Part shown: positions 13,301 to 64,000 of the stretch, one piece after another
How the letters are laid out: each line of letters begins with the position of its first letter
Numbering within the stretch: position 1 is the first letter of the stretch
DNA from: Aquirufa ecclesiirivi
Lineage (GTDB): Bacteria > Bacteroidota > Bacteroidia > Cytophagales > Spirosomataceae
Direction: 5' to 3'
DNA length: 64,000 nucleotides
Assembly: GCF_011250515.1 (NCBI RefSeq)
Contig: NZ_JAANOP010000006.1
Coordinates: forward strand, 1-64,000
Program-made: the position numbers and the translations under genes
Notes under the pieces: generated by a model
The model's input: only the letters and a program-made list of their open reading frames with translations
Told to the model about the DNA's origin: nothing
Databases searched by the model: none

Positions 13301-14430
13301 TAGATGCGGATGCGGATAATGACGGAATCCCAGATCAAATTGAGGTGATTTACAAAGGGGATAAGCCCGTGGATACCGATGCGGATGGCAAGGCAGATTA
13401 TATAGACTTAGACTCGGACGGGGATGGTATTGCTGACTTGTTGGAAGCTGGCGCTAATCCGCTCAAGCCTTTGGATACAGATCAGGATGGTTTGCCTAAT
13501 TTCCAAGATATTGATTCAGATGCTGATAGTATTTCAGATACCCAAGAAGCAGGATTAAATCCAGAAATTCCAGCTGATTTTGATGCAGACGGTATTCCCA
13601 ATTACATGGATGTAGATTCGGATAACGATACAATCCCCGACAAAGTTGAAGCAAAACCGGCTTTGGCTGGTCCAAAAGATACGGATCAAGATGGATTTGC
13701 TGATTATTTGGATCTAGATTCGGATAATGATAAAATTCTAGATCGTTTTGAAGTTGGGAAGGATGTGAATAATCCAATGGATAGCGATCAGGACGGAATT
13801 GCCGATTTTCGCGATGTAGATGCAGATGGAGATAAAATACCTGATGCAATTGAGGTGGGAAAGAATCCTTTAAGTCCAATAGATTCCGATGGAGACGGGA
13901 AACCTGACTACCTTGATATTGATTCCGATAATAATGGCATTATCGATACCGACGAGGTTGGTCCAGATCCTACGAATCCTCTAGATACAGATGGCGATGG
14001 AATATATAATTATTTGGATGCAGATGATGATGGAGATGGCTTAATAGATAAGCTAGAAGATGATGTCAACTTTGGGGCACTTCCAGATTGTGACCGTGAC
14101 GGAATACCTAATTCATTAGATGCTGATGTATGTGATACTTACCTGACCAATGGCTTTTCTCCTAACGGCGATGGCGTAAATGATTACTTTGTCATACCGG
14201 GAATTAAGTCTTTGCCTGACCATCATTTGAGTATTTTTAATCGATGGGGTAATCTGGTATATGAAACAGATAATTACCAAAATAATTGGGATGGACAATC
14301 CACCAATTTGGATATTCCTATGCTAGTTGACGGTAAAATTGTGGACGGTATTTATTTTTATCTGATTGACTTCAAGGGTCTTCGGCCTACGATTTCTTCC
14401 TTTTTATATGTCAATCGATTAAAAAAATAA
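10384..14430 (+). CDS. T9SS type B secreted protein with Ig-like repeats and calcium-binding stalk
   Basis: This 1,348-aa protein is a shorter paralogue of the upstream giant protein. A hydrophobic signal segment is at about residues 23-42, ending GAKA. Two to three diverged Ig-like repeat units follow (about 75-560), then an Asp-rich stalk of TSP3-like DxDxDG repeats (about 568-1245), then a type B sorting domain (FSPNGDGVND, FNRWGN, DGIYFY) from about 1253 to the end. Calcium binding by the stalk and export through the type IX system are inferred from the families. The start is the only suitable ATG before the signal segment; the N-terminal 22 residues are unusually long. Codon use differs from the neighbour: proline is mixed CCC/CCT/CCA here. 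It has its own -7 box and terminator, so it is probably transcribed separately. Confidence 0.88.
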   Translation: MCSNHPTHQKAIGFLGHSPKTNFSFFFCVCIPLIFLSLGAKAKRIHDNGSHALIPPKEWKQKVESPRNNLNTGLSAKYVSTATRLKITGEAQQIAGTSQDITITALDDDGNVDVSYTGTKNLFFSGASTVFELDSSELIRPGGKVIVLADLKPTVNEVNFESTLFSVFFANGMATLSLTLYKAENAIITVTDTNSGIVSSGSDQLQVNVSPDNFNNFRLYISQEQFNRIPFLGRNLVKAVDRYYNTIVDFDASLEPVFIRLSNLPGIFVRASGSNLLNLKSDFVQGVADLTAIGMVYSGKANVIGNLIVGLHNNQNVNNAIPMYYRGGDGASLKVLSTSGNSNLIRNAGRDFDMIIRAFDLDGNIADYYRGNKSITFSASASLANTGQIPQINERNIGEVNTFFFDNGQTPISGIPSIFYKVEEFYISATDGTISSSSISDQLLVKINPNPTLGRFKAQLYSPQTSGESFIGENTLTALDIYDNVITNYNAGTSVNNVRVTTSLNGTITGLSGVNVLNRAGDFVGGVANLTRLGLKFTGREGVGTFTFTRNQNNVSGTSNAITMYSGDRDQDGLLDTYEVGNNAELPHDSDQDGLVDFVDKDSDNDSLLDVLEGGGDTDHDGIPNFLDLDSDGDWLGDSDERDGDNDLDGKPNYVDDDSDNDGIPDAWEGKNKCTTCLSKQDDQGDGWDDRGQFVAIIDTDKDGQPDFLDQDSDNDQIPDRVELGADIDGDATPNFRDLDSDNDGIPDTLEAGNFEHPRDTDLDGLADFEDVDSDNDGLSDRVEVGPNPNSPLDTDQDGIPNYLDLDADGDGISDVTELSKNPLHPVDTDADGQPDYLDQDADGDGIPDAIEKGAKAIPQDSDQDGAADFQDTDSDGDSISDKLEAGANPLIPVDTDTDGIADILDLDSDNDAITDQIEVGENPLLPLDTDLDGIANYRDVDSDADSIPDQIEVSQNNAIPLDTDSDGKADYLDADADNDGIPDQIEVIYKGDKPVDTDADGKADYIDLDSDGDGIADLLEAGANPLKPLDTDQDGLPNFQDIDSDADSISDTQEAGLNPEIPADFDADGIPNYMDVDSDNDTIPDKVEAKPALAGPKDTDQDGFADYLDLDSDNDKILDRFEVGKDVNNPMDSDQDGIADFRDVDADGDKIPDAIEVGKNPLSPIDSDGDGKPDYLDIDSDNNGIIDTDEVGPDPTNPLDTDGDGIYNYLDADDDGDGLIDKLEDDVNFGALPDCDRDGIPNSLDADVCDTYLTNGFSPNGDGVNDYFVIPGIKSLPDHHLSIFNRWGNLVYETDNYQNNWDGQSTNLDIPMLVDGKIVDGIYFYLIDFKGLRPTISSFLYVNRLKK

Positions 14431-14456
14431 AATCTTAAGTGGTTTATTAAATGTAG

Positions 14457-14490
14457 AAAGTCGAGCGGTTTTACTGCTTGACTTTTTTTT
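14457..14490 (+). terminator. Strong Rho-independent terminator after second adhesin
   Basis: A 13-bp stem with two G-T pairs (left arm AAAGTCGAGCGGT, right arm ACTGCTTGACTTT) closes a TTT loop and is followed by a T-run. Confidence 0.8.
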
Positions 14491-14575
14491 ATAAAGAATA
14501 CCTATTTATAATTTTCATCAAATCGAATATCAATTTCTTGGACAATTTATATGAAATCTCATTCGTTAAACGGCT

Positions 14576-14666
14576 GATTAAACCTGCTTCCGCAACGCTG
14601 GCAGGGTTTGGAACCCTGACAGCGTTAGGAGTTTCGCTATTTTCCTGCGTGAAAACACGGTTTAAT
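14576..14666. repeat. Dispersed palindromic element, 15-3-15 core (copy 1)
   Basis: The core at 14594-14626 has arms AACGCTGGCAGGGTT and AACCCTGACAGCGTT around TGG, with one mismatch. An outer pair GATTAAACC (14576) / GGTTTAATC (14658) encloses it. It sits between convergent genes. Related cores occur at 33811, 39160 and 50788. The short open frame across it at 14478-14678 is not credible as a gene. Confidence 0.75.
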
Positions 14667-14674
14667 CCTGGCGT

Positions 14675-15514
14675 TTAGAAGCTTAATTCTTCCATTTTTA
14701 CTTCAGGATTCATCATATAAGTGATTAATGTTCCATCATTCAATACTTCCCCCACACGGTAACCTTTATACGGAGTACCCCAGCTCCCTCCAATATGGGA
14801 ATCAAATAAAAACGGAGTATTGTTCATCATTTTTACCCCATCTTGATCATGCTCATGTCCATGAAAGGCAGCCTTCACATTTGGGTAATTTTTCAACAAA
14901 TCAAAAAACTCAGGATGGTCAATCCCATGCTTGGTCCATTTGGCCTGAGGGATATGCAAAAACACTAAAACCTGCTTGTACTTTTTATGCGCGTCTAATT
15001 GCTCTTTCAACCAAGTTAAATCGGGGCAAAGGTACTTGCCCTGCTCATTGGATGTGTCACCTAATAAAATCCCTACTTTTTTATGTACTACTTGGTGATT
15101 CAATGGTGTTCCCCAAATGTCTTTCCAGTATTCCGGACTCACTAAATCATGGTTACCTCGGGTAACATAATAAGGCATTTTTAATCCGTCTATCTTCAGT
15201 TTGGCTTTGGGCATCCAAGTCTTATCATCGTGAACGATATCCCCGTTCATGACACAAAAATCCAATGGATTTTCTGCATGGAACTGGTTGATTTGTGCAA
15301 TGGCCTTATCCAACATTTCTTCAAAAGCGGTGTTTGGCTGGCCATAATGTATGTCAGAGGCTACGATAAAACGTAATTTTACTTTCTTACGATACGACTC
15401 GACTTCACTAGCACTTAATGCTTTGACTTGTCCAGAAAGGAGAAATATTGAAGCAAAAGAAACTTGTTGAATAAAATTTCTTCTGCTATGGGATAGCTGT
15501 TCTTTTTTTGACAT
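14675..15514 (-). CDS. Tat-exported calcineurin-like metallophosphoesterase
   Basis: This 279-aa protein begins with a twin-arginine signal (SRRNFIQQ followed by a hydrophobic stretch), so it is probably exported folded to the periplasm. The two-metal phosphoesterase motifs are present in order: DIHYG, NGDIVHD, RGNHD and GHEHD. The fold and length resemble CpdA-type cyclic-nucleotide phosphodiesterases and related phosphatases, but the substrate cannot be assigned from sequence. It is converging with the adhesin gene and shares no clear operon; its stop lies 8 bp from dispersed repeat copy 1. Confidence 0.85.
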   Translation of the reverse strand: MSKKEQLSHSRRNFIQQVSFASIFLLSGQVKALSASEVESYRKKVKLRFIVASDIHYGQPNTAFEEMLDKAIAQINQFHAENPLDFCVMNGDIVHDDKTWMPKAKLKIDGLKMPYYVTRGNHDLVSPEYWKDIWGTPLNHQVVHKKVGILLGDTSNEQGKYLCPDLTWLKEQLDAHKKYKQVLVFLHIPQAKWTKHGIDHPEFFDLLKNYPNVKAAFHGHEHDQDGVKMMNNTPFLFDSHIGGSWGTPYKGYRVGEVLNDGTLITYMMNPEVKMEELSF

Positions 15515-15624
15515 AGAGGTTTAGATTGAAAACTCAATTTATCTTTTTTAAACTATAAACTTATCCTTGTCCAAGATTCTTAATACTTTCTTAATTAAAA
15601 TATCCCAAGTAATTTTCGTTTTCT

Positions 15625-17262
15625 TTATTGTATTTCCCTAATCCTTACTGCCAAATAGGGTTTTTCTGGTAACCTGATTTTCTTGTAATCCTTATCGAAA
15701 AAGCGGTAATCTCTTTCTTTTCCAGTTTCAAAGATCTCGGGCAAAGTCCGAATCGTCATACCATAGGTATCAATAATATCTACCTTAAAACGAGTTCCAG
15801 CAGTCAATTTACCAAAGGCTCCGTTATTGATCGGTAAATTAAAAATCCAGTAATCTTGAATTTGTTTGCCAAAATAGACTAAATAATGACCCTTACCACC
15901 CGACGAAGTAACATTGTCACGAGATACATCCGACAAACTCATTGGGCCAGGACCTTCTTCCAAGATTTGCCTTAAAAAGCCCACTCTTTTCCAACTTTCT
16001 CCGATGAATCTTCCTCCTTTGGCCCAGAATATCGTATCTCGGTGGTCTTTGAACATAAAGGATTCTCCATGAGTTACATAGGTACCTCCTATGACACCGT
16101 TCCAAATCAAATGCGTCATCGTTTCAGGACTATAGCGACCCCAGCGTGATGTAAGATTGCCCTCATAGCCAACTTCATCCAAGACGATTGGCTTGTGATA
16201 AACATTTCGAAGCATAGCAGCGGAATTAGGACTTTGAACGGGCGACTCATCTTGAACGCTCACGTGGGTAAATTCAGGTTTCCAATAATCGTAATAAGTG
16301 GCTGTAGCTCCATGAATGGAACATAAATGACGGTAAGGGTCTGCTTTGACCACTGTTTTTGTTAATTCGTCCCAGTCCGCAATCGTTTTCGATTTGACAT
16401 AATCCCACTCATTGGCCATGGACCACCAGACATTTCTAAAAGATGAGATTCGAGCCAACAGATATTGAATATAGCGAATATTGACTTCCTTGGGCATGGC
16501 ATCAAATCCCCATCTTCCTTTGTCGTAGGGATGAAAAAGAATTAAATCCGCCTCGATTCCCATGTTTTGCAAAGCATCAATTTGTTTTTCCAATTGTTGA
16601 AAAAAAGCTGGATTAAACTGAGTGTAATCCCAAACTTTCACTTCATTTCCTTGGGCATCGCGTTTGGTTTCTTGTAGGACAAAGGGGTAAAGATTAGGTT
16701 CTTCTTTGACCAAATCATAGTTTTTAGGGAAAACACACATCCTGATTTTATTGAACCCTGATTTTTGTAGGGAATTTAATGTCAATTGTTGCAATTCAGC
16801 ACCCATGTGATTCCAAGCATAGGCAGTCGTGCCTAATGGATAGTAATTTTTATCATCGGAATAGCTGAAATGAAGCCCTTTTGTTTTTACTGGCCCATGA
16901 TTTTGTGCAGATGGAGTCACACATTCAAACGTCCCAGTCTTTTTATCCAGTCCTGGCACGTTGCTTATTGTCGTGTATTTCCATGATCCTAATCGAGTGG
17001 ACATAAATCGTAGTTTGAAACGATTGTTGCCATCATAAAAACCAGAAACGGTTAGCGTTGTATCTTGGTGAACAAATATGGCTTTGAATTCCACATCTTG
17101 AAATCCATTTCCTTTAAATGCTGTTTGATAGGTTAATTCCACTCGATTCCAGCGTTCCAATTGCTCTTGAGCTAGTCCAAATGATAGGCTAAATAGGAAG
17201 CTAATACATAATAGATATGATTTTAAATATCGAAGGGGATTCATGTAAATATGTCTTTGCAT
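15625..17262 (-). CDS. Secreted glycosidase-like protein (DUF5060 plus TIM-barrel domain)
   Basis: This 545-aa protein has an N-terminal signal peptide (hydrophobic stretch ending SLSFGLAQ). A DUF5060-type beta domain spans about residues 35-115, a glycoside-hydrolase-like barrel about 125-440, and a small C-terminal beta domain the rest. WWSMANEWD (Glu285) and VLDEVGYEG (Glu363) look like the acid/base and nucleophile pair of a retaining clan GH-A enzyme; that is inference from their spacing and context. The substrate is probably a plant or algal polysaccharide side chain, but I cannot name it. There is no SusC/SusD pair nearby, so this is not a classical polysaccharide utilisation locus. 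A second ATG at codon 7 is an equally possible start. Confidence 0.75.
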   Translation of the reverse strand: MQRHIYMNPLRYLKSYLLCISFLFSLSFGLAQEQLERWNRVELTYQTAFKGNGFQDVEFKAIFVHQDTTLTVSGFYDGNNRFKLRFMSTRLGSWKYTTISNVPGLDKKTGTFECVTPSAQNHGPVKTKGLHFSYSDDKNYYPLGTTAYAWNHMGAELQQLTLNSLQKSGFNKIRMCVFPKNYDLVKEEPNLYPFVLQETKRDAQGNEVKVWDYTQFNPAFFQQLEKQIDALQNMGIEADLILFHPYDKGRWGFDAMPKEVNIRYIQYLLARISSFRNVWWSMANEWDYVKSKTIADWDELTKTVVKADPYRHLCSIHGATATYYDYWKPEFTHVSVQDESPVQSPNSAAMLRNVYHKPIVLDEVGYEGNLTSRWGRYSPETMTHLIWNGVIGGTYVTHGESFMFKDHRDTIFWAKGGRFIGESWKRVGFLRQILEEGPGPMSLSDVSRDNVTSSGGKGHYLVYFGKQIQDYWIFNLPINNGAFGKLTAGTRFKVDIIDTYGMTIRTLPEIFETGKERDYRFFDKDYKKIRLPEKPYLAVRIREIQ

Positions 17263-57797: not shown

Positions 57798-57805
57798 TAG
57801 ATTTG
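57798..57805 (+). promoter_or_regulatory. -7 box upstream of the four-helix-bundle gene
   Basis: TAGATTTG matches TAnnTTTG and overlaps the TTG at 57803, which speaks against that codon as a start. Confidence 0.4.
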
Positions 57806-57823
57806 GTAATTAAAATTTATCAT

Positions 57824-58189
57824 TTGAAACATAAGAATGTCATAAAATCAAAATCGTTTTTTTTCGCAATTCAGATTTGGCATTTGTATCATTATCTTGT
57901 TTATGAGAAAAAAGAATTTGTTCTTTCAAAGCAAATTTTACGAAGCGGAACAGCAGTTGGAGCAATTATTAGAGAAGCAGAACATGCCGAATCTAAATTA
58001 GATTTTAAACACAAAATGTCAATTGCTCAAAAGGAAATAAATGAAACTATATATTGGTTGGAATTATTAAACGAAATTAGTTACATAGAGGATGTTCGTT
58101 TTGTTAAATTAATGTCAGATAGTGATGAAATCTTAAGAATAATTTCAAAAATCATAATAACAGTAAAACATAACTTATCGATTAAGTAG
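57824..58189 (+). CDS. Four-helix-bundle protein (S23/23S-intervening type)
   Basis: This protein of about 121 aa matches the family by KSKSFFFAIQIWHLY, LSKQILRSGTAVGAIIREA, FKHKMSIAQKEINETIYWLELL. There is no ATG start; a TTG at 57803 lies in the promoter box, so I chose the TTG at 57824 (MKHKNVIKSKS), which also gives the usual family length. Members occur in 23S rRNA intervening sequences and, in similar form, as accessory proteins of diversity-generating retroelements, but stand-alone copies like this one are common in Bacteroidota and have no known function. The gene is bracketed by inverted 14-bp arrays, a sign of insertion as a unit. Confidence 0.8.
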   Translation: MKHKNVIKSKSFFFAIQIWHLYHYLVYEKKEFVLSKQILRSGTAVGAIIREAEHAESKLDFKHKMSIAQKEINETIYWLELLNEISYIEDVRFVKLMSDSDEILRIISKIIITVKHNLSIK

Positions 58190-59133: not shown

Positions 59134-59207
59134 GGTTGCGTAGCTCAATTGGATAGAGCATCTCACTACGGATGAGAAGGTTTGGGGTTCGAATCCCTAC
59201 GCGACCA
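59134..59207 (+). tRNA. tRNA-Arg (anticodon ACG)
   Basis: The acceptor GGTTGCG pairs with CGCGACC (one T-G pair). The anticodon stem TCTCA/TGAGA closes a CTACGGA loop with ACG at 59168-59170. The T loop is TTCGAAT; the discriminator is A; CCA is not encoded. A34 implies modification to inosine to read CGN codons. Confidence 0.93.
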
Positions 59208-59224
59208 CACTAACTAAATATATA

Positions 59225-59314: not shown

Positions 59315-60508
59315 TTATTCTTTTATAATTAATCGTTTTATTAACAAAAAACTAGATTTTAAAAAACCTTTGAATGAATAAGTATTTGGATAATGATCCA
59401 TTCGTTTTAATGATTTAAAATATTTTAGATAGACTATTATATGTTTGATATAAGCGAAATCTTTATCTTGAAATTGGGTTGTTAAATATAAATGTCTTAA
59501 CGTTAGAGCTCTATTCTTACCCCAGTAGGAGGCTTTTTCCCATTCTTTAACGATTAAATCAATTTTAGAGCAATCAAAGTTATCCAAGTAATTATCTAAA
59601 ATGGAAGGTAATTTGTAATCTAAATAAGATTTCAAGATTGATAAAGCATTTTTGAATGCTGCTGTTAATCTAAAATCATCAACTTGTAATATAATTAATT
59701 CCCAATTGATTTTTTTATCATATTGATACATGAATGCATGAAAGTCTTGAATGTGCCTTAGTCTAAACCAAGATTCTTTTCCTCCATGGTGTGCTAATAA
59801 CATCCAAAATAAGCCTTCTGAATTAAGCTGTTGAGTTTCAATGCCGTTAAATTTCAATTTTTCGGTTAAATCAAATACTCGATTTATTAATGGTTTTTTT
59901 TCTTGATACTTTTGATAAAAAAAGTGCTGAAATAAATCCCAATGAAAATCTAGATTTATGATTCCTTTTTGTAAATGAATTTCATTGTGTAAACTTTGAT
60001 AGACAATTAACTCTTTTAAATCTTCAGGAAGATTATGAAGATGGCTAAGATTAGGTGAATTGATTCTGTAACCATCTTGAAGTAAAATTTCTAATCCTTG
60101 GATAAGATGTTTTTTTTCAATTAGTACATCTAAATCTGAGGTAGTTCGTACTTGTTTGTTTTGATAAATCCCTTGAATCAAAATATTTCCCTTTAATACC
60201 AATAAGGGAATCTGATGTTCGGAAAATAGTTTTAAAAGTCGAGTTGTCTCCGCGGCATATTGCAAATTTTTAACTACTTGCTGAGCCATAAATGATTTCA
60301 CCTCAGTTCGGATGCTCTCAGCCATGAATTTTTCCTTCCTTTCATAGGAAAATAAAAGCGCTTGAATTCCGTGATAACGATATAATTTTGATAATCTATC
60401 CGTATTGTAGGGTAAATTAGGAAAAATAGGGGCGAATCCTTCCTGTTCAAACTGATTTGTGATTGCTTGGATAAGTATGTCTAATTCGGGGGAAAACTCT
60501 TTTTTCAT
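59315..60508 (-). CDS. Nucleotidyltransferase family protein (NTP_transf_5 type)
   Basis: This 397-aa protein has the nucleotidyltransferase signature KGNILIQGIYQNKQVRTTSDLDVLI (in part VLKGNILI and SDLDVLI) at about residues 105-135; the two Asp of DLD should bind metal. The remainder is helical with no catalytic motif I know. The family is seen in peptide (RiPP, including some lasso peptide) and surface-polymer clusters, where it may transfer a nucleotide to a product; the substrate here is unknown. The start is the ATG at 60508, which overlaps the exporter stop by one base (TGATG); a GTG at 60511 is an alternative. Confidence 0.78.
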   Translation of the reverse strand: MKKEFSPELDILIQAITNQFEQEGFAPIFPNLPYNTDRLSKLYRYHGIQALLFSYERKEKFMAESIRTEVKSFMAQQVVKNLQYAAETTRLLKLFSEHQIPLLVLKGNILIQGIYQNKQVRTTSDLDVLIEKKHLIQGLEILLQDGYRINSPNLSHLHNLPEDLKELIVYQSLHNEIHLQKGIINLDFHWDLFQHFFYQKYQEKKPLINRVFDLTEKLKFNGIETQQLNSEGLFWMLLAHHGGKESWFRLRHIQDFHAFMYQYDKKINWELIILQVDDFRLTAAFKNALSILKSYLDYKLPSILDNYLDNFDCSKIDLIVKEWEKASYWGKNRALTLRHLYLTTQFQDKDFAYIKHIIVYLKYFKSLKRMDHYPNTYSFKGFLKSSFLLIKRLIIKE

Positions 60509-62271
60509 CACACCATTTGTTGATCATATAATTGTTTAAATAGACCATTTTTGTTTTTCAACTCATCAAAGCTTCCCTTTTCTACAATTTTGCCTTCATC
60601 CATGACATAGATATAATCACCTAATTTTAGGTTGTAAAGTCGGTGTGTAATAATAATGGTCGCTCTATTTGCTGCTAATTGTTTAAAATTTTGAAAAATG
60701 GTTGCTTCCGAGATGGCATCTAATGCACTGGTTGGTTCATCTAATACGACAAGATGACTAGGACGATAAAATGCCCTGGCAATAGCTAATTTTTGCCATT
60801 GACCTCCGCTAATCTGATGTCCACCTTCAAAAATTTTGCCTAATCTGGTATTATAGGATTGAGGAAGTTGTTGAATGAATTCTTCTGCGTCCGCTAATCG
60901 TGCAGCTTGTTGGACAGCCTCCATGTTAATTGGCTGATCTAAATTGCCCATGGCAATAATTTCTTTGATTTGTAAAAAGTACTTTTCAAAATCTTGAAAG
61001 ACAAATAGGCTGTTTTGCTTAAAATGGTCAGCATTTAATTCCTGATAGCGATGTCCATTCCAAGTGATTTCACCTTGACTTGGACTATATAAACCAGCTA
61101 ATAGTTTGATTAAAGTCGTTTTTCCTGCGCCATTCATCCCCACGATGGCAATTGTTTGACCAATTTGACAAGTCAAATTAATCTGTTCTAATGTATTTTG
61201 TGTTGATCCTGGATATTGAAAATCGACATGCTTGATTTCTAAGCCTTTACCTTCCACATCCATGGAAATATTGCCATGAATGGGTTTTTCTCTATCTAAT
61301 GCCAGAAACAGGTTAAAATCTTGAATAAATCTACGTTGTTGAAATAATTGAAGTAAGGAGTTTAATAGGGATTTTAATGTGCTTTGAATTCGCTGAATAC
61401 CTTGAATATAGACAATGAATAAACTGATACCAATCGATTGAGCGAAAGCCATTTGAGCTAATCCGTATAGAATATAAAACAAGATGGTCAATTCAAGTAG
61501 TTCTGTCAAAAAACCTAGACTAATTAACTTTTGTTGAAGAAGGTTCTTTTTAAAGAAAATGAATGCTTTAATCTCCTTTAAACGGTTTAGAATATACGTT
61601 CCAAAATTGAGTGTACGTAATTCTTTAGCATAGGCACTGCCAGTCAACAAATGGATTAAATAAAAAGACTCTCTTTCTTTACTAACTAGTAGTTTGTCAA
61701 GACGATGTAGTGCAAATCCTGAATACCATTTAATGATGCTTAGTGGAGCAGCAACAAATAATATTAACCAGGCATATGTTTTAATTAGTGTAAAGAAATA
61801 GACCATTAGTATAGTAAAAGTCAACAATTGCGTCAAAAATGACTTGAAGTTTTGGTAAATCAAAGGCAGATTTTGTTGTGATTGTTGCTGCGCTATATGT
61901 AAGGAGTCTTGATATTGGGCTTCTTCGTAATACGTATAGGGTATTGCGATTGCCTTGTTTAAAATTTTATAGACGATTTCATTCGTTATTTTTTGTTCTT
62001 GAATAAATGAAATATAGTTATCTACGTTAATTAATAATGATTGAAAAATTTGTAAACTAATTAGTATCGCAATCCATGTAATAACAGAGTTGATATTCGT
62101 CTGAGAGAGGTGGTTAAATTGATCAAATATATTTTTAGTTACAAATAAGAGTGCCGTTGGAATCAAAGCTAAAATCACAGCTATTAGAAGCTGGAATAGT
62201 GTATTCTTCTTATTTAATCCAAATAAGAGTTTATAAATCAGTACGAAATCTCGAATGATGCTGAATTTCAA
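60508..62271 (-). CDS. ABC exporter linked to the tailoring genes
   Basis: This 587-aa half-transporter has an N-terminal six-helix membrane domain (about 1-310) and a C-terminal ATPase domain with Walker A GMNGAGKTTL, signature ISGGQWQKLAIARAF and Walker B LVVLDEPTSALD. No N-terminal C39 peptidase domain is present. It is likely to export a peptide or lipid-linked product of the neighbouring enzymes. The membrane domain is only distantly like that of the exporter at 29694. It is the first gene of a minus-strand pair with the nucleotidyltransferase and divergent from the HPr-kinase-like gene. Confidence 0.88.
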   Translation of the reverse strand: MKFSIIRDFVLIYKLLFGLNKKNTLFQLLIAVILALIPTALLFVTKNIFDQFNHLSQTNINSVITWIAILISLQIFQSLLINVDNYISFIQEQKITNEIVYKILNKAIAIPYTYYEEAQYQDSLHIAQQQSQQNLPLIYQNFKSFLTQLLTFTILMVYFFTLIKTYAWLILFVAAPLSIIKWYSGFALHRLDKLLVSKERESFYLIHLLTGSAYAKELRTLNFGTYILNRLKEIKAFIFFKKNLLQQKLISLGFLTELLELTILFYILYGLAQMAFAQSIGISLFIVYIQGIQRIQSTLKSLLNSLLQLFQQRRFIQDFNLFLALDREKPIHGNISMDVEGKGLEIKHVDFQYPGSTQNTLEQINLTCQIGQTIAIVGMNGAGKTTLIKLLAGLYSPSQGEITWNGHRYQELNADHFKQNSLFVFQDFEKYFLQIKEIIAMGNLDQPINMEAVQQAARLADAEEFIQQLPQSYNTRLGKIFEGGHQISGGQWQKLAIARAFYRPSHLVVLDEPTSALDAISEATIFQNFKQLAANRATIIITHRLYNLKLGDYIYVMDEGKIVEKGSFDELKNKNGLFKQLYDQQMV

Positions 62272-62296
62272 TGTTGAACGGATTTGTTTGTATTTA

Positions 62297-62304
62297 CAAA
62301 GCTA
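62297..62304 (-). promoter_or_regulatory. -7 box for the exporter-nucleotidyltransferase pair
   Basis: The minus strand reads TAGCTTTG, matching TAnnTTTG, 25 bp before the exporter start. Confidence 0.35.
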
Positions 62305-62367
62305 TCCTATGTCGTTGATTTATCTCTAATCAGGATAGATATTCATTCATATATTTGATATTATCAT

Positions 62368-62375
62368 TAGTTTTG
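62368..62375 (+). promoter_or_regulatory. -7 box for the HPr-kinase-like gene
   Basis: TAGTTTTG matches TAnnTTTG and lies 22 bp before the ATG at 62398. A second match, TATATTTG, is at 62350-62357. Together with the minus-strand box this makes a compact divergent promoter region. Confidence 0.35.
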
Positions 62376-62397
62376 TAAAATAAATTTAACCTATTCC

Positions 62398-63315
62398 ATG
62401 TATAAATACGTTGCATTGGGAATGCAAATTCAATCTGAAATTGAAATTCCAGGCTTATTTCCTTTTGACTTCCAAGAAAGTGGGGGTACGGTCATGGTCA
62501 AAATGGGTACTGTACCAGAGACACTTCAAAATGAAATATTAGAAGTAAAGCCTTTTTCTTTCTTCAACGAGCGTGAGTTTATATATCATATTCCAGATGC
62601 AGCAAAATTTTATATTACGAATGGGGATAAAATACTAATAGAGCCATTAACGGATAATTTGGATGAAGTGTTTTTTTATCTATACACTGGTGTATTGGCT
62701 ACTGTATTATTTCAAAAAAATATACTTCCTTTTCATGTTTCAGGTGTAGTTCTTAAAAACAACACAGTTTTGCTTTTTGCAGGACACCAGAGAGCAGGGA
62801 AGTCTTCTACTTCTATCATGCTTCAAAATAGAGGATATTTGCCATTTACAGATGATACGGCTGTATTACAAGTTAAAAATGGACTTTGTTATGCAACTTC
62901 CTCATACCCGATTATTCGGGCAATGGAACGAACTTTAGAGAAGCAATCGGTCTATTCAGATGACGAAATAACGCCGAAAATTAAAGAAGGCTTTAAGTTT
63001 GGAATAAATTTTCATAAAAAGTTTACTCCTGAGCAGTTACCCGTTAGTGGTATCGTTTTTTTAAGTGAAGATGGGGATGAGGTAGAGATTTCGCCAATGA
63101 AATCAACAGAAGCCATAAAATGGTTAAAGTTTAATATTTATAGAAAACAGTGGGTCAATGGAATGAAAAAAGAACTTCTTGAATTTCAGACGATTTCACA
63201 AATTGCTCAGAGTAAATTACATTTTTTTTCAGTTAAGCGCCCTTGGGAATCCGATAGTTTTGAGATTTTAGCGCAAGCCATAGAAGATCAAGTCATTCAT
63301 CAAATTGGAAAATAA
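62398..63315 (+). CDS. HPr kinase-like protein
   Basis: This 305-aa protein has the HprK-type P-loop FAGHQRAGKSSTSIM at about residues 128-142 and the following TDDTAVL, where the Asp pair corresponds to the HprK catalytic acid. It lacks the N-terminal HprK domain and the full HprK/P signature, so phosphorylation of HPr is unlikely. Relatives of this type sit in RiPP clusters, including lasso peptide clusters where a kinase phosphorylates the C-terminal residue of the precursor, and in HprK-related systems of proteobacteria. Here it is divergent from the exporter and overlaps the sulfotransferase by 11 bp. Confidence 0.75.
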   Translation: MYKYVALGMQIQSEIEIPGLFPFDFQESGGTVMVKMGTVPETLQNEILEVKPFSFFNEREFIYHIPDAAKFYITNGDKILIEPLTDNLDEVFFYLYTGVLATVLFQKNILPFHVSGVVLKNNTVLLFAGHQRAGKSSTSIMLQNRGYLPFTDDTAVLQVKNGLCYATSSYPIIRAMERTLEKQSVYSDDEITPKIKEGFKFGINFHKKFTPEQLPVSGIVFLSEDGDEVEISPMKSTEAIKWLKFNIYRKQWVNGMKKELLEFQTISQIAQSKLHFFSVKRPWESDSFEILAQAIEDQVIHQIGK

Positions 63316-64000
63316 AAAGAATATAGTTTGGCTTGCTTCTTATCCTAAATCTGGGAATACTTGGTTTAGGAGCTTTATTTCAGCTCTTAGAAATAAAGGT
63401 GAAGTTGATATCAATGCTATTTCTACTGAAGGGATATTTTCTCAAAAAAGAGGGTTAGAAGAATGTTTGGATTTGGATGCAGATGAAATACCTGTGTCTA
63501 AAATGGATCAATTTAAACGCATATCTTTTGAGCACCAATCAAATACTTCTGCCATGAAGTGTTTTGTGAAAATCCATGATTTGTATTCCATGTCAAAAAT
63601 TGACCATCAACCTATTGTACCACAAGAGTCAACATTGGCAGCTATCTACTTTGTGAGAAATCCGCTGGATGTAACTATTTCAATGGCAAATCATAATGGA
63701 CAAACATTGGATGAGGCCATTGCCAAAGTAGTGTGTAATGAACATGCACATTTGGTTCATTCAGAAAAACATGCGCAAGATCAGTTTCAGCAATATTTAG
63801 GCACATGGAATATGCATGTGGAAAGTTGGAAAAATGTCTCAGCTTTTCCCGTAATTTTTATTCGATATGAAGACATGAAAATGAATCCCCAAGACTCATT
63901 TTCACAAGTTTTGAAACAGATTGAATATGAGGCAACTGAAGAAGAAATACAATTAGCTTTAGAAGCTTCCCAATTTGAAAAATTGAAAAATCAAGAAGTT
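63305..64000 (+). CDS. Sulfotransferase, 3' partial
   Basis: The frame runs open to the window end, giving 232 visible codons. The PAPS-binding loop (5' phosphosulfate) WLASYPKSGNTWFRSF is at residues about 8-23 and the 3'-phosphate-binding segment YFVRNPLDVTISMA at about 117. Both are hallmarks of cytosolic-type sulfotransferases that move sulfate from PAPS to hydroxyls or amines of small molecules, glycans or peptides. No ATG is available; a TTG at 63305 inside the end of the preceding gene is the likeliest start. The acceptor is unknown; context suggests the product exported by the neighbouring ABC protein. Confidence 0.85.
   Translation, partial: MENKKNIVWLASYPKSGNTWFRSFISALRNKGEVDINAISTEGIFSQKRGLEECLDLDADEIPVSKMDQFKRISFEHQSNTSAMKCFVKIHDLYSMSKIDHQPIVPQESTLAAIYFVRNPLDVTISMANHNGQTLDEAIAKVVCNEHAHLVHSEKHAQDQFQQYLGTWNMHVESWKNVSAFPVIFIRYEDMKMNPQDSFSQVLKQIEYEATEEEIQLALEASQFEKLKNQEV

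Follow-up and report, generated by a model that had tools for sequence, protein, structure and literature searches.

What product is made by a kinase, a nucleotidyltransferase, a sulfotransferase and an ATP-binding cassette (ABC) exporter whose genes follow a tRNA-Arg(ACG) at the end of a 64,000-nucleotide stretch of DNA from the freshwater bacterium Aquirufa ecclesiirivi? This stretch, the window of our analysis, comprises bases 1-64000 of a contig of 190,949 bases (NZ_JAANOP010000006.1), and a previous reading of its letters (the sequence-only reading) had proposed a locus for a ribosomally synthesized and post-translationally modified peptide (RiPP) or for a decorated polymer, guessing that the missing peptide-processing parts lay just past position 64000. 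The reading was continued beyond the window (L002, contig 59001-79000), and coordinates above 64000 are given in contig numbering, which carries on that of the window. The tRNA and the open reading frames (ORFs) of the four genes lie where they had been reported, and past the edge were found a PqqD-like protein (B1), a transglutaminase-like protease (B2), an asparagine-synthase-like cyclase (C) and many precursor ORFs, together with a SET-domain protein and an adenosine 5'-phosphosulfate (APS) kinase (Table 1). The identification of the locus as a lasso-peptide-type cluster in an Aquirufa species is well supported by these parts. The RiPP half of the proposal is therefore supported and the polymer half is not: among the nine larger genes scanned at 59315-73906, between the tRNA and a bestrophin gene, no glycosyltransferase occurs, and an exopolysaccharide or polymer locus was rejected on this ground (the scan did not extend to two further ORFs, antisense and 92 and 108 codons long). 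Nor does the downstream sequence hold only glycosyltransferases or housekeeping genes, the outcome that the previous reading had named as counting against it. Gene content, motifs, their conservation, the linkage of APS kinase to sulfotransferase and the insertion site are read directly from the sequence. From them, we consider it probable that this is a many-precursor lasso cluster in which the kinase (K) phosphorylates and the sulfotransferase (S) sulfonates peptide hydroxyls, the APS kinase supplying 3'-phosphoadenosine 5'-phosphosulfate (PAPS).

The lasso machinery was examined protein by protein. B1 matches PF05402 with 43.6 bits (cut-off 23.4) and B2 matches NF033537 with 38.9 bits (cut-off 33), its catalytic Cys and His (C80, H115) being invariant in the six sequences aligned. 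Lasso cyclases are asparagine-synthase-like proteins that lack the glutaminase Cys. The cyclase found here lacks it too; in an alignment of 10 sequences the ATP loop is kept and residue 2 is always Asn or Ser, once the additional N-terminal residues of two of the sequences are disregarded. The exporter is of the broad MsbA or peptide-exporter type, every NCBIfam match shown being below its cut-off. When 200 genomes of the family were surveyed for a cyclase match at E 1e-60, seven had one, the window's genome included. Two congeners (L014, L015) share the gene order. Of the 13 precursor copies in the first 11 are intact, and of the 15 in the second 14 are; no nucleotidyltransferase (N) was labelled in their clusters or in the flanks L109 and L110. 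The exporter is 84 and 88% identical to those of these congeners, and for SET, B1, B2, S and K the nearest counterparts are those of L015 (78-90%), whereas the cyclase (L002:6667-8550) is 53% identical to each of its counterparts (L014:11329-13272, L015:11225-13159), which share 77% with each other. It therefore seems that the cyclase was exchanged separately from its neighbours.

The about 5.8 kb between cyclase and APS kinase hold no ORF of at least 80 codons, and an rRNA operon in the ORF-poor 5.5 kb was rejected after comparison with Rfam. What they do hold is a series of short minus-strand ORFs amid dense direct repeats. With a DNA profile derived from the intact precursors found in three genomes, 18 precursor copies were counted at the locus, 14 with an intact ORF (13 of them in the 5.5-kb array) and four without; one of these four has lost the W-x-x-P segment while its frame is still open. 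A fragment of APS kinase lies within the array, so the duplication included part of that gene. The precursors carry a leader motif W-[IV]-x-P-x-[IL]-x-x-W followed by a core of small residues, an Asp and mostly G-G-x-K-x-Y; the aromatic-x-x-P-x-L form of the motif is present in all 14 intact precursors, with Trp as the aromatic residue and Ile or Leu in last place. A main-type set of 31 precursors was defined from the three Aquirufa clusters, leaving aside eight intact ones of other types (one in L002, five in L014, two in L015). Their core start was put at index 16, the position that corresponds to A1 of related clusters when the sequences are aligned on the leader Trp; related clusters of the same genus have Thr at -2 and a clear core start (KENTL before AGGPGASDFGIFS, L016). 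With this predicted start, the ring Asp would be residue 7 in 25 of the 31; in the remaining six it would be residue 8 (four) or residue 9 (two). Asp+6 is Tyr in 23/31 and Ser in 8/31, and in the array of the window's genome 12 of the 13 intact members have Tyr at this position and 12 have no terminal Ser. For the leader and core pieces of the main type in the three genomes, the ratio of nonsynonymous to synonymous substitution (pN/pS) is 0.41-0.59, which points to constraint. A Bacteroidota-type promoter before each precursor was also considered and discarded, as the full consensus precedes none of the 31 and its -7 element four of them, about chance density. Precursors of other types (..INDGGLFS, ..LNPLKFL), whose core start is ambiguous, stand near the SET gene in two of the three Aquirufa clusters (L014:13405-14335 and 15146-15547; contig 64913-65065).

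Concerning the tailoring enzymes, S follows K directly and its start overlaps K by 11 bases. Its motifs YPKSGNTW, R114-N115-P116 and GxxGxWK, which we take to be those binding the 5' and 3' phosphosulfate, are invariant in the six sequences aligned; profile matches to the solved SULT1B1, TEG12/TEG14 and StaL range from E 2e-21 to 4e-13, and the structural model has a predicted local distance difference test (pLDDT) score of 76.9. The cofactor-binding motifs of these enzymes are kept in S; the substrate class is a different one. At E 0.001 K matches nothing in Pfam, and its matches in NCBIfam are weak (HprK_rel_A, E 0.0011); we call it HPrK-like because its profile matches HPr kinases of solved structure (E 2.6e-4) and because of H113, K135, D152 and D153, invariant in eight of eight aligned relatives, a His-Lys-Asp-Asp motif described as essential in lasso kinases (PMC9266682).

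To place these genes in a wider frame, the cyclase profile was searched in 391 genomes of the order and 392 of the phylum (17 and 23 matched) and the sulfotransferase profile in 396 genomes of the class and 391 of the order (8 and 8 matched). Together with the loci found before, this gave 58 loci, which were labelled with our own profiles in stretches of up to 20 kb, some shorter: 18 loci with the sulfotransferase (S+) and 40 without (S-). Since 12 of the 18 were found through the sulfotransferase search itself, the S+ share should not be read as a frequency. Lasso genes with S beside them are found in several families, and K lies directly upstream of S on the same strand in 17 of the 18 S+ loci; in 16 of the 17 the two genes overlap or are at most 20 bases apart. 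Since 31/40 S- loci also have K, S looks like an addition to it. In another family of the same order the whole set is present (L055: APSK-N-ABC-C-SET-precursors-B2-B1-S-K). Most other loci have 0-4 precursor candidates, the exceptions being L055, with seven by an automatic count and six judged real by eye, and L017, with eight by the same count, which is rough (in L055 it included two ORFs judged false and missed one judged real). L017 (G041:C30:140001-160000, 13695-15928) is the second lasso cluster of its genome, and its eight candidates stand in a row, mostly with a conventional TL-A start, so multi-precursor arrays are present twice in the genus. The exception to the K-S pairing is L094 (G062:C1:692001-712000), where a sulfotransferase, a second and shorter match, an APS kinase and a pair of lasso-type precursor ORFs are present and neither kinase nor cyclase is labelled in the 20 kb; G062 has other lasso loci that could serve these precursors. 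The sulfotransferase matches of L090 and L091 (G062, G073) contain one in-frame stop each, which may mean that decay has begun in some of these genes.

For the sulfate supply, the genus was surveyed through 38 genomes. Five of them (G000, G012, G041, G070, G183) have PF00685 matches, and PF01583 exceeds its cut-off in seven, of which two (G147, G195) are 42-position matches inside longer frames; a full-length APS kinase is therefore present in exactly the five sulfotransferase genomes, all seven sulfotransferase matches of which lie within 10 kb of an APS kinase. By simple arithmetic, uncorrected for kinship, five genomes drawn from 38 would coincide by chance about twice in a million. CysD, a subunit of ATP sulfurylase, occurs in 35 of the 38 genomes (34 over cut-off), so APS should be available to nearly all of them. 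The association extends to the labelled loci, where an APS kinase is found in six of the 18 S+ (L002, L014, L015, L055, L094, L095) and in none of the 40 S- (Fisher 4.6e-4), or in 4/16 versus 0/40 if Aquirufa is counted once (p 0.005). In addition, a Tyr among the last eight residues is found in 10/15 S+ and 5/24 S- loci with precursors (p 0.007). Peptide sulfation appears to be the best reading of S and APS kinase together, the support being indirect.

The SET protein (PF00856, 45.3 bits) keeps N98, H99, P103, N104 and Y134 in the four sequences aligned, presumably the NH..PN and Tyr motifs of SET lysine methyltransferases. Its best profile match is PBCV-1 vSET (E 6.1e-18), which is also its best fold match; the latter counts as support only, because the model was built from four sequences and has a mean pLDDT of 59.7. 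SET is present in 4/18 S+ and 0/40 S- loci, and a role as a peptide methylase is plausible.

Putting these elements together, the following pathway is predicted. B1 would bind the leader motif W-x-x-P-x-[IL]-x-x-W and B2 would remove the leader, after which C would activate the ring Asp and join it to the new N-terminus, seven residues apart in most precursors if the start is aligned with A1. K and S would phosphorylate and sulfonate hydroxyls of the peptide, the likeliest site being the tail residue at Asp+6, a Tyr (or Ser), and the APS kinase would feed S with PAPS. SET would probably methylate a Lys, possibly at Asp+4, N may extend the phosphate with a sugar, as reported for PsmN, and the ABC protein would export the peptide set. 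The reactions, the residues assigned to them, threading, export and activity are all predictions. The fuller proposal, that one enzyme set yields a mixed library of small-ring lasso peptides, sulfated with local PAPS and Lys-methylated by SET, from more than 12 precursor genes maintained by duplication and loss, is tentative, and as a whole we hold it possible rather than probable.

The close neighbourhood of K and S in S+ loci would also fit a lasso cluster in which S sulfonates the phosphate added by K, giving a mixed phospho-sulfo group much as PsmN is reported to decorate a phosphate, and in five S+ loci (L019, L069, L090, L092, L095) the predicted precursors end in Ser and have no Tyr in the last eight residues. 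However, this has no citable precedent, and the Asp+6 Tyr and the scarcity of terminal Ser in the array of the window's genome speak against it; we consider it unlikely, and action of K and S on the same tail is favoured because Tyr or Ser is fixed at Asp+6.

Several observations weigh against a sulfated, methylated lasso peptide. The NCBIfam lasso PqqD models match B1 below their cut-offs, and the cyclase reaches 226 bits with NF033535, below the lasso cut-off of 525. Thr(-2), the usual mark of lasso precursors, is absent from the leaders, where Glu, Gly or another residue is found instead. The core start is uncertain: in 10 of the 31 main-type precursors a Gly stands two positions before it and could serve as residue 1, giving rings of 9-11, and with the chosen start residue 1 is not Ala, Gly, Ser or Thr in eight. 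A start at this Gly14 was dropped as a general rule, since only those 10 possess it and five of them would form rings of 10-11. Asp+4, the possible target of SET, is other than Lys in 9/31, and the eight precursors with Ser at Asp+6 come from a count that excludes the eight intact ones of other types. Among the S- loci, eight of the 40 show a cyclase match only and may not be lasso clusters. The APS kinase of L095 is fused to a CysN-like GTPase and may thus serve general sulfur metabolism. Finally, the association between Tyr and S drops to p 0.036 when only kinase-bearing S- loci are compared and to p 0.07 when Aquirufa is also counted once, and Tyr is not claimed as a proven sulfate acceptor.

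The missing Thr(-2) and the unusual residue 1 of some precursors raise the question of whether the cyclase product is an unthreaded macrolactam, all the more as rings of seven residues, such as those predicted here, are described in a review as hard to thread, huascopeptin being a known example (PMC12427821). Thr(-2) can be replaced, as in the BsfA/BsfB lasso system, where Ile stands in its place (PMC10368454), whereas here it is Glu or Gly. The B1-B2-C set and the leader motif are of the lasso-cluster type, and relatives with the same enzymes have conventional cores (TL before AGGPGATDAGILS, L018), so that an unthreaded product seems improbable to us. That S and the APS kinase are mere neighbours, serving lipid or polysaccharide sulfation beside an ordinary phosphorylated or glycosylated lasso cluster, could be argued from the other sulfotransferase-APS kinase pairs of the genus (G041:C11, G070:C17, G012, G183), which have no lasso gene labelled within 12-18 kb, but in view of the K-S coupling, the recurrence of S beside lasso genes in several families and the lack of glycosyltransferases among the genes scanned, it is very unlikely.

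The position of the cluster beside a tRNA was compared across the 38 genomes of the genus, using a bestrophin match at E 1e-80. Bestrophin is present in seven, three with the cluster and four without. One of the latter (G115, L105) has enoyl-CoA hydratase, tRNA-Arg(ACG), 57 bases and then bestrophin at its chosen start codon, while in the window's genome tRNA and bestrophin are 14.9 kb apart with the cluster in between; the adjacency to the tRNA therefore reflects the insertion site. The same tRNA also borders the cluster in G041 and G070. In G168 and G192 it is followed by a different gene, of 403 codons, before bestrophin (L106, L107), suggesting that the gap may be a general insertion spot, and in G090 no tRNA is found within the 3.9 kb examined. 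An island carried by an integrase was rejected, as no integrase occurs among the Pfam-scanned genes and no other place in L002 repeats 15 bases of the tRNA. A short ORF at 57803-58189, between rpoN and the enoyl-CoA hydratase gene, may encode a four-helix-bundle (IVS/S23-type) protein.

Table 1. Features of the Aquirufa ecclesiirivi locus (positions in window numbering, carried on along the contig)
Feature	Position	Strand	Match or remark
tRNA-Arg(ACG)	59134-59208	+	borders the inserted cluster on one side
N, NTP_transf_5 protein (place of PsmN)	59315-60511	-	PF14907, E 7.6e-40
ABC exporter	60508-62271	-	PF00005
K, HPrK-like kinase	62398-63315	+	weak profile matches, conserved residues
S, sulfotransferase of PAPS-dependent type	63305-64156 (window edge at 64000)	+	PF00685, E 1.8e-21
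B1, PqqD-like	64162-64443	+	PF05402
B2, transglutaminase-like protease	64436-64861	+	PF13471; NF033537 over cut-off
Second-type precursor	64913-65065	-	
SET-domain protein	65133-65597	-	PF00856
C, asparagine-synthase-like cyclase	65667-67550	-	PF00733; NF033535 below cut-off
Precursor array, 13 intact ORFs and 4 copies without intact ORF	67765-73271	-	
Intact array precursors, first seven	67765-67929, 68204-68389, 68531-68701, 69078-69245, 69693-69845, 69927-70085, 70185-70340	-	
Intact array precursors, last six	71130-71282, 71362-71514, 71599-71751, 71837-72061, 72428-72604, 73116-73271	-	
Copies without intact precursor ORF	68921-69015, 70479-70584, 70739-70814, 70918-71049	-	
APS kinase fragment inside array	72725-72835	-	
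Whole APS kinase	73334-73906	-	PF01583; far end of array

Part of this gene set has been reported before. Like the paeninodin and pseudomycoidin clusters, the locus joins lasso machinery to an HPrK-like kinase (PadeK/PsmK) with the His-Lys-Asp-Asp residues, and like pseudomycoidin it includes an N protein (PsmN), as these clusters are described in PMC9266682 and PMC8498205. In those systems, however, the kinase target is the C-terminal Ser of the precursor, which most of the 14 intact precursors found here do not have, and S, APS kinase and SET are additional here. Lasso clusters from the rumen, too, are reported to include kinase and nucleotidyltransferase genes (PMC7533575). The sequence-only reading had called the set with a sulfotransferase uncommon, which needs a qualifier, because the review PMC8498205 already places sulfotransferase and nucleotidyltransferase genes in Firmicute lasso clusters. 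There, a putative sulfotransferase gene lies next to lasso genes (PMC8498205, citing Zhu et al. 2016), but the passages of that review on these clusters mention no APS kinase, SET protein or sulfated product. PBCV-1 vSET (PDB 1n3j/3kma) is likewise a minimal SET domain, but it is named a histone H3 methyltransferase, whereas the SET gene found here sits in a peptide cluster. In the open-licence part of PubMed Central we found no report of such a precursor array, of a linked PAPS supply or of a SET protein in lasso clusters, nothing relevant on lasso peptides with a SET domain, nothing on biosynthetic gene clusters of Aquirufa and no statement of the largest precursor number per lasso cluster. 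Lasso clusters with sulfotransferase, kinase and nucleotidyltransferase genes are thus already published, and the combination of a large array, a sulfate supply and SET appears to be new.

If the predictions are true, these lasso peptides would be the first to carry sulfate, and also the first RiPP on which a SET methyltransferase acts. Sulfate tagging has been suspected for lasso peptides as a class, the role of the sulfotransferase being so far an open guess; with an APS kinase tied to lasso sulfotransferases both by location and by presence or absence across the genus, peptide sulfation becomes directly testable. The natural array under one enzyme set would in turn offer a ready means to probe the range of cores that a lasso cyclase accepts, and the SET gene, in such clusters of two bacterial families, may point to a chemistry of which we found no description for lasso peptides within the same literature.

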